Virus record (IMG/VR): IMGVR_UViG_3300025889_000038
Location: 1 to 37,124 of that record
Reading direction: 5' to 3' (one strand)
Source: a virus
Length of the DNA stretch: 37,124 nucleotides
Below the pieces are notes generated by a model. It ran no database searches and was not told the origin of the DNA. It saw only the letters and a program-made list of their open reading frames with translations. A program made the translations under genes and the position numbers. Each line of letters opens with the position of its first letter. Within the stretch, counting starts at the first letter, position 1. Positions 2,671 to 37,124 of the stretch are shown piece by piece.

Positions 2671-3030
2671 TTAGTTGTTATTGTTCAATAAATCAAGAGC
2701 TTCCTTTGGGCTTCTTGCGATGCCTGCAATACCTCCCATTTTTTGAACGTGGTCAATATAATTTAATTGTTCTTTTGATGCACGGCCTTTTTTTGTTTTT
2801 ACTTCGATTCCAAAGAAACGGCCAGTCCCCGCTTGAATTCCAATGATGTCACAACTCCCAACACACAATCCGACTGGAATCATCATTGCATTTGCGAGCG
2901 TTACCGTTTGACCGTCTTTGTGTATTGGCTTGCCAGTCCAGAAACGGCCTGTTTCATTTCTGAAAACGCTGTGGCCTTCTTTTGATAGTGCGACCATGAT
3001 TAAGCGCTGTAAGCGAGTTTCTTCGTTCAT
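2671..3030 (-). CDS. VRR-NUC domain nuclease
   Basis: 119 aa. The core matches the VRR-NUC branch of the PD-(D/E)XK nucleases: a GSCDIIG segment with D61, then FFGIEVKTKKG giving E76-x-K78, then Q88 in the following helix. The length is typical for stand-alone phage VRR-NUC proteins, which are thought to cut branched or flapped DNA. Its ATG overlaps the helicase stop (ATGA at 3027-3030), so the helicase and nuclease are translationally coupled. Such SF2 helicase plus VRR-NUC pairs are common in phage replication modules. The role in processing replication or recombination intermediates is inferred. Confidence 0.88.
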   Translation of the reverse strand: MNEETRLQRLIMVALSKEGHSVFRNETGRFWTGKPIHKDGQTVTLANAMMIPVGLCVGSCDIIGIQAGTGRFFGIEVKTKKGRASKEQLNYIDHVQKMGGIAGIARSPKEALDLLNNNN

Positions 3031-4460
3031 GCCTGTAACTCCATTAACACACGTCGTGCTTGAGTGAATTCATCTGTCGTAGGCTTGCGGCCTTCACGGC
3101 TTGCCATCATTATCGCGCCCCATTGTGCTGGCTTCTTCATACCACGGCGCATTCCTAGCGAGATCAGGTCACGAAGCGTACGCGCTTGGCCTTGCTCTTT
3201 CTTACGTTCCAATCGCACTGCGTCAATATCAACTGCTTGAAGCTCACCTTCGGCTTGCTCAATCTTGCGAACTTTCTTCTCAATATGCGCGCCACACATC
3301 GGGCATGAGTCAGGACCTGGAACGAACACGGCATAACAAGAAGTACACTGCTGGACATTAACATCAGGTTCGTCGTCGTCTTTTTTCTTTCGTTTTCCCT
3401 TCTTCTGCCCTTCTAGTGACCATTCGCGGTTTTCGCATGGCAGGCCGTGCCTCATTGCATTCCCAACATGATCAAGAATCAGCAATCTGTCCTTCCCTGA
3501 ATGTGGTCTAAGACCTCGGCCATTTCCCTGCATAAAAACAATAAGGCTTTGTGTTGGCCTAAGCCACTGAACAACCTCAATAGCCGGAATATCGACACCT
3601 TCAACTAGTAACTGAACGTTAGTAATTACTTTTATTTTTCCGTCTGAAAAGTCCTGCAATACTTTTTCTCTTTGCTCTCCGGTCATAGAGCCTTCTATAC
3701 ATGCCGCAGGTATTCCAGCTTCATTGTAGGAGTCAGCCACGTGCTGCGCATGATTAACGGTAACGCACATAACAACACATCTTTTGCCCTGCGCCAGTTT
3801 TTTATAATGCCCTACAGCGTCACCTGTAATGGTTGGTTTGTCAGTAGCTCGCTCAAGGTCACCCTTGTTGAAATCTCCTGCAGTAGTTTTTACTCCAGTA
3901 GTATCAACTCCAATATTTGGCGCATAAAGAACATAGTCACACAAAAAACCCTCTTGTTGTAACCATCTAATAGACGGTCCTGCCACAATCTTATCGTACA
4001 TATCGCCCAAAGCCTTTCCATCAGTTCTTTCTGGCGTAGCACTAAGGCCAACTAATACGGCATTAGGGTATGCTTCAACTACCTTTTTGTAACTGTCAGC
4101 AGTCGACCTATGGGCCTCGTCTATGATTATTAAATCAGGAGGTTCATATTGATGAAGCCTATTAACCAGAGTTTGCACAGACGCAACCTGTACAGGTAGA
4201 AGGCTTGGCCTCTTTCCGCTTGAAATCATTCCATGCGCAAGCTTTTGTTTCCATAAGGCTGCACTTGTTTGTTTAAGCAGTTCATTTTGATGCACCAGAA
4301 AGAACGCCCTCTTTCCGCGTTCCGCCGCTGTCTTCATCATGTGAACAGTAAGTGCTGTTTTTCCCGCACCAGTAGGCGCTTGAATAAGCACTTTCCCTAC
4401 AGCCTTTAGTTCGTTTCTTGTTTTTATAATTATGTCTAATTGGTAGTCTCTAAGCTGCAT
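3027..4460 (-). CDS. DEAH-box SF2 helicase with C-terminal zinc ribbon
   Basis: 477 aa with SF2 motifs in order: motif I PTGAGKT (residues 29-35), motif II DEAH (114-117), motif III SATP (140-143), and a motif VI-like QGNGRGLRP in the second RecA domain. The layout resembles XPB/SSL2-like phage helicases. A CxxC...CxxC pair near residues 373-393, after a Lys/Asp-rich stretch, looks like a zinc ribbon that could touch DNA. It should unwind or remodel DNA during replication or recombination. The ATG overlaps the stop of the HTH gene (TAATG), and its own stop overlaps the VRR-NUC start, giving a tightly coupled operon driven by the leftward promoter at 4656-4684. Confidence 0.92.
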   Translation of the reverse strand: MQLRDYQLDIIIKTRNELKAVGKVLIQAPTGAGKTALTVHMMKTAAERGKRAFFLVHQNELLKQTSAALWKQKLAHGMISSGKRPSLLPVQVASVQTLVNRLHQYEPPDLIIIDEAHRSTADSYKKVVEAYPNAVLVGLSATPERTDGKALGDMYDKIVAGPSIRWLQQEGFLCDYVLYAPNIGVDTTGVKTTAGDFNKGDLERATDKPTITGDAVGHYKKLAQGKRCVVMCVTVNHAQHVADSYNEAGIPAACIEGSMTGEQREKVLQDFSDGKIKVITNVQLLVEGVDIPAIEVVQWLRPTQSLIVFMQGNGRGLRPHSGKDRLLILDHVGNAMRHGLPCENREWSLEGQKKGKRKKKDDDEPDVNVQQCTSCYAVFVPGPDSCPMCGAHIEKKVRKIEQAEGELQAVDIDAVRLERKKEQGQARTLRDLISLGMRRGMKKPAQWGAIMMASREGRKPTTDEFTQARRVLMELQA

Positions 4461-4627
4461 TAGTTCACCTCAAAATATGCTGTTAGTTTTTGCTGCATTG
4501 ATTCTGATAACTTAGTGACCAGACCTGTTTTTATTGCGCTTATGTAAGCACGGGTAACGCCAACGCGCCGCGCCACTTCTGATAGGTTACGGTCGCTTAA
4601 TTTGTTTTTGATTTCATCTAATGACAT
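4460..4627 (-). CDS. Small HTH DNA-binding protein, candidate switch regulator
   Basis: 55 aa from the ATG at 4627, preceded by AAGGAGA. An upstream in-frame TTG at 4651 is less likely because it lies inside the promoter. The segment LSEVARRVGVTRAYISAIKTG is a compact helix-turn-helix of the Cro/XRE kind. It is the first gene of the leftward operon and sits directly beside the overlapping divergent promoters, the classical place for a Cro-like autoregulator. No larger CI-type repressor is seen nearby. Operator binding is inferred. Confidence 0.82.
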   Translation of the reverse strand: MSLDEIKNKLSDRNLSEVARRVGVTRAYISAIKTGLVTKLSESMQQKLTAYFEVN

Positions 4628-4644
4628 TTTTGTCTCTCCTTTGG

Positions 4645-4673
4645 TTGACAAGTGTATAGTAAGCCCTTATATT
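4645..4673 (+). promoter_or_regulatory. Rightward sigma70-like promoter
   Basis: TTGACA at 4645-4650, a 17-base spacer, then TATATT at 4668-4673. This is a perfect -35 and a 5/6 -10 at optimal spacing. It should start near 4680 and drive the RecE-like exonuclease operon, whose ATG at 4704 follows AAAAAGGAGC. It shares almost every base with the leftward promoter on the other strand. Confidence 0.85.
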
Positions 4674-4684
4674 CACATCGTCAA
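4656..4684 (-). promoter_or_regulatory. Leftward sigma70-like promoter overlapping the rightward one
   Basis: On the minus strand, TTGACG (plus 4679-4684), a 17-base spacer, then TACTAT (plus 4656-4661). It should start near 4649 and transcribe the HTH, helicase, nuclease and primase operon. The two promoters interleave, so one polymerase should exclude the other. An inverted repeat GTTGAC/GTCAAC at 4644-4649 and 4680-4685 brackets the region and could be an operator. Confidence 0.8.
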
Positions 4685-4703
4685 CTAAGAAAAAGGAGCA
4701 ATA

Positions 4704-5555
4704 ATGAACATCATCCACCACAAAGACCTAACGCCAGAGCAAGCACAAAAAGGCTGCTTTGTTATTGATATGCCAGAAAGCGAGTACCATTCGCACGACA
4801 GTGTTAGCAAGTCAATGCTTGATCTTGTAAGCCGTAGCCCTGCGCATCTAGCGTATGCCCAAGAGCGCGAAGCAACGCGCAATATGGCTATCGGTTCAGC
4901 CATTCACTGTGCAATATTGGAGCCGCAACGATTCGAACGCGAGTATATGGTCCTTCATGGCATTAACGACCGCCGCAAATCTGAGTATCGCGAAGCAGTA
5001 AAAGCGCGTCATGCGGATTTTGTGCTAACCGGTAACGAAGGCGACAATGTATTGGGCATGCAATCCGCTGTTAATCTAAACCCAACGGCGGCCATGGAGC
5101 TAGGCAAAGCAGGTTACGCAGAGTTAAGCGCTTTTGTTATGTGTCCGGTTACCGGTGTTCAGTTACGCTGCCGTTATGATTGGATAGACATTGAAACAAA
5201 TAGCTGTATTGATTTAAAGAAGACACAAGACGTGCGTTATGAAGCGTTCCAGAAGTCCATTGCGAATTATCGCTATCATGTACAAGACGCGTTCTATAGC
5301 TACATTTACAGCCTTATAACTGGTGATAATCTGCGCTTTCAATTCTTGGCGGTTGAAGAGCAACAGCCGCACTCTAATAAATTGTATCAGCTAGACACAG
5401 AAGCCAAGCAGGTAGGCAAACGTCAGTTCGAGGCCGACCTTGCTGAGTACAACCAGTGTAATCAATCAGGAGATTGGCACGGGATAGCGCAAGAAGATGA
5501 ACTTATTAGCCTTCCAATGTGGGCGCTAGATGATGAATGTGAGGTTGAGCTATGA
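4704..5555 (+). CDS. RecE/exonuclease VIII-like PD-(D/E)XK exonuclease
   Basis: 283 aa. The motif order fits the RecE C-terminal nuclease family: GSAIH with H68, an acidic AGYAELSAF with E140, CRYDW with D159, then CIDLKKT giving D170-x-K172, and the late YHVQDAFY helix with Q and Y. It should degrade one strand of duplex ends processively so that an annealing protein can act. The length matches the stand-alone nuclease form, without the long N-terminal region of E. coli RecE. It is the first gene of the rightward operon and its stop overlaps the next ATG (ATGA). Confidence 0.88.
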   Translation: MNIIHHKDLTPEQAQKGCFVIDMPESEYHSHDSVSKSMLDLVSRSPAHLAYAQEREATRNMAIGSAIHCAILEPQRFEREYMVLHGINDRRKSEYREAVKARHADFVLTGNEGDNVLGMQSAVNLNPTAAMELGKAGYAELSAFVMCPVTGVQLRCRYDWIDIETNSCIDLKKTQDVRYEAFQKSIANYRYHVQDAFYSYIYSLITGDNLRFQFLAVEEQQPHSNKLYQLDTEAKQVGKRQFEADLAEYNQCNQSGDWHGIAQEDELISLPMWALDDECEVEL

Positions 5556-6145
5556 GAATAAATGACTTATCAAAAACAATAAAACCAAAGTCTGACCAGT
5601 TGAATGCAGATGACTTAATCAGCGGACCAATGACCGTTACTGTGCAATCAGTCACTCTTAGCGGACAAGAAGATCAGCCAATTAATGTAAATTTAGGCGG
5701 AGGACTGCAACCATACAAGCCGTGCAAGTCGATGCGCCGATTATTGATTTTTGTATGGGGAAAAGATGGCAACGAATGGGTTGGCCGCAGCATGACGCTA
5801 TACAATGACCCAGCAGTTACATGGGCAGGCCAGAAGGTTGGTGGTATTCGTATCAGCCACCTGAGTGCAATTAGCGAACCGATTAGCATTGCCTTGACTG
5901 CAACCCGTGGCAAGCGCAAGCCGTACACAGTAGAGCCGCTTATTATTCCTGATTATCCTCAATCAGACTTTGATAATAACCTTCCAGCGTGGACAAGTGC
6001 CGTGCAAGCTGGCAAGATGACTACCCAGCAGTTGGTGGCAAAGATTCAACAGAAAGGGCTTCTATCTGCCAGCCAGTTAGATGCAATTAATTCAATAAAC
6101 ACACCGTCAAGCGAACAGCTAGACGACACACTAGAAGACCTATAA
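5552..6145 (+). CDS. Recombination-module protein of unknown function (possible OB-fold/annealing partner)
   Basis: 197 aa, ATGA-coupled to the exonuclease and followed by SSB. Residues ~25-125 are beta-rich with conserved-looking Gly, Trp and aromatic positions (LIFVWGKDGNEWVG, then a repeated AVTWAGQKVGG-like stretch), compatible with a small barrel. The C-terminus is an acidic tail ending in DDTLEDL. It is not a recognisable RecT, Redbeta, Erf or Sak by eye. In phages the gene between a RecE-like exonuclease and SSB is often an annealase or mediator, so that is the best guess, from position only. Confidence 0.75.
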   Translation: MRINDLSKTIKPKSDQLNADDLISGPMTVTVQSVTLSGQEDQPINVNLGGGLQPYKPCKSMRRLLIFVWGKDGNEWVGRSMTLYNDPAVTWAGQKVGGIRISHLSAISEPISIALTATRGKRKPYTVEPLIIPDYPQSDFDNNLPAWTSAVQAGKMTTQQLVAKIQQKGLLSASQLDAINSINTPSSEQLDDTLEDL

Positions 6146-6155
6146 GGGGTATTAC

Positions 6156-6461
6156 ATGGCTAAAATTGGCGTAAATTTAAAAATCGACGTTAGTAAGATT
6201 GATAAAACTCGCATGTTCAAAGGTGAGAAGGGAACTTACCTAGACTGCACAGCTTTTATTGACTTGGATAATCAAGATCAATGGGGCAATAACGGAATGA
6301 TAACTCAATCATGGAAAGATCAGCAGAAAGGTGAAGGCGCTATTTTGGGTAATAGCCGAATTTTTTGGAGTGATGGTAACTCTACGCCTAGTGCTAGCAG
6401 CAAGCCGCCAGCGCAGCAAGGTCAGTCATTTGACGACTTCGACGACGAAGTACCGTTTTAA
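6156..6461 (+). CDS. Phage single-stranded DNA-binding protein
   Basis: 101 aa. The N-terminal ~75 residues match small phage SSB-like proteins, with a MAKIGVNLKIDVSKID opening and a KGTYLDCTAFIDLDN core. A Ser/Pro/Gln-rich linker follows, and the protein ends in DDFDDEVPF. This acidic tip is like the DFDDDIPF tip of bacterial SSB, which docks partner proteins. It should coat ssDNA during replication and annealing. It is the last gene before a strong terminator at 6481, so the exonuclease, unknown protein and SSB form one transcription unit. Confidence 0.87.
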   Translation: MAKIGVNLKIDVSKIDKTRMFKGEKGTYLDCTAFIDLDNQDQWGNNGMITQSWKDQQKGEGAILGNSRIFWSDGNSTPSASSKPPAQQGQSFDDFDDEVPF

Positions 6462-36807: not shown

Positions 36808-37124
36808 CTAAATCGGCATTGATACATACCTACTGAGCGAACCTGCGAACCGAATTGGCCTTTGTCCTGCCTCAGAACCGTCTACCCGTAACAGCATCCG
36901 GCGATGTCCAGAAGACCAAGGCGTATCTCGAAGTGTCTTAGCAAGCTCTGCGTGAGTGTTAGCAACACATAGGCGGTCGTCGATAACCTGCAAGCCGTGA
37001 CGGCTTAGAGTGTCCCCAGCTTCAGCTCGACTTAGAGAACCAATACCGCTACGACCAGCAGCAACATCAACCAGCTCACCAAGAGAACGAGTGACCGAGC
37101 CAACACCGTCAAGGTCCACTCGAA
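36808..37124 (-). CDS. Primase-helicase, C-terminal part (continues from base 1)
   Basis: This is the in-frame continuation of the leftward frame from 2459-1. The last 127 bases duplicate the contig start. It supplies the final residues of the 882-aa primase-helicase and ends in a TAG at 36808-36810. The segment is rich in Arg and Gly and contains no separate recognisable domain. A TGTTAC repeat abuts the stop codon, and a leftward terminator hairpin follows at 36761-36785. An apparent ATG within this piece is an internal methionine, not a separate gene. Confidence 0.88.
   Translation of the reverse strand, partial: RVDLDGVGSVTRSLGELVDVAAGRSGIGSLSRAEAGDTLSRHGLQVIDDRLCVANTHAELAKTLRDTPWSSGHRRMLLRVDGSEAGQRPIRFAGSLSRYVSMPI
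36998..37124. repeat. Right copy of 127-bp terminal direct repeat
   Basis: Exact copy of bases 1-127. Position p in the first copy corresponds to p+36997 here. The leftward codon phase is preserved across the join, so the two ends should be merged when the genome is annotated as a circle. Confidence 0.95.

Follow-up and report, generated by a model that had tools for sequence, protein, structure and literature searches.

The window analysed here, a 37,124-bp stretch of viral DNA taken as a whole, contains a 76-bp gap between two divergent genes, both with their own AAAGGAG ribosome-binding site, and a compact block of predicted promoter elements lies within this gap (Table 1). The leftward operon begins with the gene for a 55-amino-acid helix-turn-helix (HTH) protein, which we call mini-XRE. 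It also includes helicase and VRR-NUC nuclease genes and, further along the arm, a primase-like open reading frame assigned from sequence only. The rightward operon is headed by the gene for a RecE-like exonuclease, and HNH endonucleases are also encoded on this side. These annotations agree with an earlier sequence-only reading, in which the HTH protein and replication genes were proposed to be transcribed in one direction and a RecE-like recombination operon in the other. Positions 1-127 of the window recur exactly at 36998-37124, and this 127-bp terminal repeat suggests a complete genome that is circularly closed or terminally redundant.

Table 1. Predicted features at and around the divergent promoter block (positions in the window).
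Feature	Position	Strand	Basis or remark
VRR-NUC nuclease, leftward operon	2671..3030	-	PF08774 over cut-off
DEAD/ResIII helicase, second gene of leftward operon	3027..4460	-	phrog_16 E 9e-100; PF04851
55-aa mini-XRE (Cro/CI-type HTH), first gene of leftward operon	4460..4627	-	HTH_3 PF01381 25.4 bits, cut-off 23
Ribosome-binding site of HTH gene (AAAGGAG)	4636..4642	-	sequence
Core block with both sigma70-type promoters, divergent and interleaved	4644..4685	.	-35 to -35 span 40 bp
Rightward promoter TTGACA-17-TATATT, RecE-like operon	4645..4673	+	11/12, top score in window
Leftward promoter TTGACG-17-TACTAT, HTH/replication operon	4656..4684	-	9/12; interleaved position kept in relatives
Ribosome-binding site of exonuclease gene (AAAGGAG)	4692..4698	+	sequence
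RecE-like (exonuclease VIII), first gene of rightward operon	4704..5555	+	phrog_412 E 2e-78; PF12684 E 3e-33
Second gene of rightward operon, family phrog_11517 without assigned function	5552..6145	+	E 5e-57
Third gene of rightward operon, possibly single-strand-binding-like	6156..6461	+	only a weak hit to NCBIfam SSB, E 0.014

The rightward promoter has a -35 box at 4645-4650 (TTGACA) and a -10 box at 4668-4673 (TATATT), and the leftward promoter has a -35 box at 4684-4679 (TTGACG) and a -10 box at 4661-4656 (TACTAT), with a spacer of 17 bp in each. That these promoters interleave within 40 bp, each -10 box lying in the spacer of the other, had been proposed from the sequence. Both were found as placed, the arrangement in relatives agrees, and the coordinates bear out the nesting: the leftward -10 box falls inside the rightward spacer (4651-4667) and the rightward -10 box inside the leftward spacer (4662-4678). 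With opposed -35 and -10 elements on the same DNA, the block is placed by its sequence among putative overlapping divergent sigma70 promoters. It is not a bidirectional promoter of the kind built on a shared -10 element, as the boxes at 4656-4661 and 4668-4673 are separate. Transcription is predicted to start at about 4680 rightward and about 4649 leftward, some 31 bp apart, compared to the 10-23 bp typical of bidirectional promoters with a shared -10 element.

Within the whole window, the rightward promoter is the sole match scoring at least 11/12, whereas shuffled windows gave 0.28 such matches on average, and the interleaved pair is the sole one scoring at least 20/24, with 0.08 expected in shuffles. 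When the rightward promoter was held fixed, an equally good leftward promoter arose in 9% of permutations (p = 0.09 for the window alone). Given this frequency, the window by itself is no proof of the leftward promoter, and it is the relatives that supply it. Our distant set consisted of viral contigs from exonuclease searches in which diverse HTH proteins of 54-66 amino acids are encoded divergently just upstream. Removal of near-duplicates left 24 non-redundant intergenic regions, each separating an HTH gene from the gene transcribed away from it. The mean best interleaved score in these 24 regions was 18.1 of 24, compared to 14.4 in dinucleotide shuffles (Z = 10.7). With the rightward promoter fixed, the leftward promoter was above chance across the family (Fisher p = 6e-12, a value that is indicative, the rows being related). 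For example, L009 has the exact geometry of the window (span 40 bp, both spacers 17 bp) with a spacer sequence that is almost wholly different; no interleaved pair was found in L143. Because the same layout occurs in dozens of distantly related phages whose sequences otherwise differ, it is very likely that the predicted layout is a real control node for the early genes of a phage.

The distances between the two -35 boxes are restricted. Spans of 33-35 bp were found in 13 of 21 cases, compared to 12.5% expected from shuffles (p = 1e-7). Others measured 40-41 or 45-46 bp, and the ranges 36-39 and 43-44 bp were empty. A half-turn relationship might underlie the spans of about 34, 40, and 45 bp. 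At a spacing of 34 bp, the last A:T pair of each -35 box can serve as the final base of the opposing -10 box. A pair with a span of 34 bp that is weaker than most (p = 0.07) is present in L152, where a mini-XRE gene (1487-1675) is divergent from a helicase-like gene and not from an exonuclease gene.

The layout extends to isolated phages that lie outside the discovery set and were identified by HTH searches. Interleaved pairs scored 21/24 in Alcaligenes phage CASP1, 20/24 in Idiomarinaceae phage 1N2-2, and 19.5/24 in Pseudoalteromonas phage H103, and none of these scores was matched in 300 shuffles. In all three, the HTH gene is followed by a large gene whose annotation is primase-helicase, primase, or hypothetical. 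On the divergent side, the first gene of the operon codes for an AAA ATPase or for a protein lacking annotation, not for an exonuclease. Conversely, 51 exonuclease loci lacking the HTH gene had no excess of interleaving (Z = 1.5). The single high scorer among them, L123, has a gene for a P22_Cro protein (PF14549, E 2e-15) that is transcribed away from the exonuclease gene. Since isolated phages have the pair and HTH-less loci have no excess, the layout tracks the Cro-type gene and not the exonuclease. Taken at the level of sequence, these comparisons establish predicted promoter pairs, their conserved position and spacing, a near-constant small-HTH neighbor, and the replacement of that neighbor by a P22-Cro protein in one relative.

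In two close relatives of the window, L002 and L003, the block is unchanged and the HTH proteins are 93% and 82% identical, respectively. The 46 bp at 4642-4687 are 100% identical between L003 and the window, no other identical run in the alignment of about 4.6 kb being as long, compared to identities of 79% in the HTH gene, 47% in the HTH leader, and 75% in the exonuclease gene; in L003, an additional gene separates the block from the exonuclease gene. The spacer bases outside the hexamers are as well kept as the boxes in this group, judging from the L003 comparison, as expected if the DNA of the block has another reader; recent exchange would be an alternative explanation. A search of phage DNA with the region returned no match.

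Exchange between relatives provides some information on whether HTH protein and promoter DNA belong together. L008 and L012 share every base from the block's right arm into the start of the exonuclease gene, yet their HTH genes and cores differ. In L012, the HTH gene and most of the core are L005-like, which looks like a cassette swap in which the HTH gene and the core can travel together. Counting against such travel, L149 combines an L136-like block with an HTH reading frame that is different and frameshifted. In addition, near-identical HTH proteins are found with divergent inner spacers (L131 and L139, HTH 95% and spacer 42% identical; L132 and L145, 85% and 25%). The inner spacer tended only weakly to co-vary with the HTH protein (partial r = 0.25, p = 0.003), and this tendency was set aside because these two cases contradict it. 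Pairing of the HTH protein to its DNA is suggestive but not settled by these sequence comparisons.

We searched the block for an operator. The inverted repeat GTTGAC/GTCAAC, described in the sequence-only reading as bracketing the promoter pair, is present at 4644-4649 and 4680-4685, but as a separate element it does not stand: each arm consists of a -35 box and one adjoining G, so the repeat adds no evidence of its own. As an independent operator it was rejected for this reason and since its span shifts (42, 47, and 36-37 bp) with the promoter geometry. Across the full set of -35 arms, TTGAC follows directly on a G in most of the plus arms and most of the minus arms, which exceeds what a plain -35 box needs. 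In L112 (about 3905-3970), GTTGAC-N31-GTCAAC is kept where the helicase gene itself is divergent, no HTH gene is present, and the promoter boxes look degenerate. A palindromic operator inside the block gained no support, as dyad symmetry beyond the promoter boxes was not significant in the window (p = 0.61) or across the family (Z = 2.2). Copies of the candidate half-site AWGTGWATAKWAAG and of a further candidate, AGTGTATA, were no more frequent in the window than expected by chance. A good candidate operator is seen in the branch formed by L153, L154, and L155, in which long inverted arms, TTGACGTTATGCA ... TGCATAACGTCAA, surround two promoters in the intergenic region.

The AlphaFold2 model of the 55-amino-acid HTH protein has four helices and a pLDDT of 89.5, and in this model residues 26-34 are likely the recognition helix. 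The closest solved folds are the SinR HTH and other XRE domains, and the protein belongs to the XRE, or Cro/CI-type, HTH group both by its HTH_3 match over the curated cut-off and by its Cro-like fold. It does not match the P22_Cro family (PF14549), to which its counterpart in L123 belongs. Because the protein has neither an effector nor a protease domain, no induction signal is evident. The claim that a large CI-type repressor is absent was upheld: no S24/CI-type repressor (PF00717) was found in the window or in 15 related records, and the HTH_3 domain was found once in the window. A tyrosine integrase (PF00589) was also not found in the window or these 15 records. By these searches, the window lacks both the S24 CI-type repressor and the tyrosine integrase that would characterize a lambda-type CI/Cro immunity switch.

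We favor the interpretation, to which we assign a probability of roughly 0.6, that the block is a Cro-like autoregulated early promoter node onto which polymerase loads in one direction at a time and which mini-XRE turns down. The node would be the main site of early transcription in a phage without a CI-type repressor. On entry, host sigma70 RNA polymerase could fire it in either direction, leftward loading yielding mini-XRE and the replication genes and rightward loading the RecE-like recombination operon. Judging from the geometry, the two promoter sites would never be occupied together, since they share the same 40 bp and simultaneous loading should be impossible. As mini-XRE accumulates, it would bind at or beside the block and lower early transcription, including its own, in the manner of Cro. 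Repression of the node by the HTH protein is suggested by its Cro-like size, fold, and position and by its replacement by a P22-Cro protein. Weighing against this interpretation are the failed operator search, the divergent inner spacers beside near-identical HTH proteins, the frameshifted HTH frame of L149, the missing pair in L143, and phiHSIC, where a related HTH protein goes with promoters that do not interleave.

An alternative that we regard as unlikely is that polymerase exclusion by the interleaved promoters is sufficient to fix the ratio of leftward to rightward transcription and that the HTH protein acts elsewhere. Such competition would account for the conservation of boxes and spans alongside spacers that vary even between near-identical HTH proteins, and for the failure to detect an operator dyad. 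However, a mini-XRE (or P22-Cro) gene adjoins the pair almost always and loci without the gene lack the pair, and in the window group the spacer bases do not vary. Furthermore, the E. coli bidirectional promoters that have been tested lack the strength for basal competition (PMC12825309), although the boxes here are nearer consensus.

The sequence-only reading had described the promoters as a switch. As a bistable developmental switch, in which the HTH protein would silence one direction and be antagonized by the other arm, the locus resembles lambda-type immunity regions in its divergent arrangement, and phage phiHSIC, which has a related HTH protein, has been described as pseudotemperate. 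Bistability requires an antagonist of the HTH protein, but none is visible: we recognized no second repressor or antirepressor in the rightward arm. The lack of S24 and tyrosine integrase proteins in the window and its 15 relatives also argues against such a switch, as does the common core, which would place both arms under the same repressor, and we consider this explanation improbable. Least probable is that the rightward promoter alone is real, with the leftward match a by-product of composition, as the 9% permutation frequency in the window would allow, given the family-wide conditional test, the clustering of spans at 33-35 bp, and the pairs in phages outside the discovery set.

The block shares features with several known regulatory regions. 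As in the lambdoid immunity region (lambda OR, PR/PRM, and Cro), a small Cro-type gene, of the P22-Cro family in L123, lies beside divergent early promoters. Unlike that region, the phage block has no CI partner and no operator was found in it. The lambda promoters are back to back and their boxes are not interleaved; the block was correctly described as tighter than PR/PRM, though precedents exist in Pr/Pc of plasmid pLS20 and in E. coli bidirectional promoters. In Tn10, the tetR and tetA promoters overlap, and the regulator autoregulates and controls the divergent operon through them; TetR is of a different family from mini-XRE and has mapped palindromic operators and an inducer.

Divergent promoters on common DNA are known, and polymerase competition between them counts only under strong transcription (PMC4207663, PMC12825309). 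In the Bacillus subtilis plasmid pLS20, promoters Pr and Pc have been proposed to have exactly coinciding -35 and -10 boxes, whereas the phage boxes interleave at set spans; as here, a regulator gene lies in one direction and a large operon in the other (PMC4207663). That system differs in belonging to a Gram-positive plasmid with mapped starts and in its tetrameric regulator, Rco, which forms a loop between two operators (PMC4207663). Bidirectional promoters in E. coli have one common -10 element and starts about 10-23 bp apart, and their steric exclusion of two polymerases on a short stretch is also expected of the block; the -10 boxes here are distinct, each with its own -35 box (PMC12825309). 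Small Cro proteins act at divergent promoters in PY54, where Cro has a single operator (PMC4488713), and in dicA/dicC (PMC10448788).

The novelty lies in an interleaving that is conserved at set spans among phages with a mini-XRE gene but no CI. The open-access literature yielded no description of this cassette, most subscription journals lying outside that search. We tentatively speculate, with the odds somewhat against it, that a widespread and previously undescribed cassette of CI-less phages combines a Cro-like protein of 55-60 amino acids with a two-way promoter at spans of about 34, 40, or 45 bp, is swapped between phages as one unit like an immunity region, and is the sole early regulator of replication and recombination genes. 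If the favored interpretation is right, many environmental phages would run their early program from a single element of about 40 bp, replication and recombination genes would compete for one polymerase site, and a single tiny repressor would replace the CI/Cro pair. The node could provide a compact natural system for examining the part that promoter spacing and the exclusion of polymerases play in setting gene ratios, and the restricted spans pose a direct question for promoter structure. Interleaved boxes beside a mini-XRE gene could also serve as a signature for annotating early regulators that have been missed or called hypothetical, as in phiHSIC and CASP1.

In Listonella phage phiHSIC (L109), the HTH relative is unannotated (AY772740, 34447-34620, plus strand), as are those in Vibrio phages L110 and L111. 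In phiHSIC, the two best promoters stand back to back, their -35 boxes abutting, and do not interleave. Ten loci (L004, L005, L012, L125, L129, L132, L135, L142, L145, and L146) carry a short stem-loop, CTGGCAA-NNN-TTGCCAG or a variant such as CTAGTC-N6-GACTAG in L012, just outside the minus -35 box. The stem-loop, which is absent from the window, includes some co-varying pairs, and its position corresponds to the predicted 5' end of the exonuclease mRNA.
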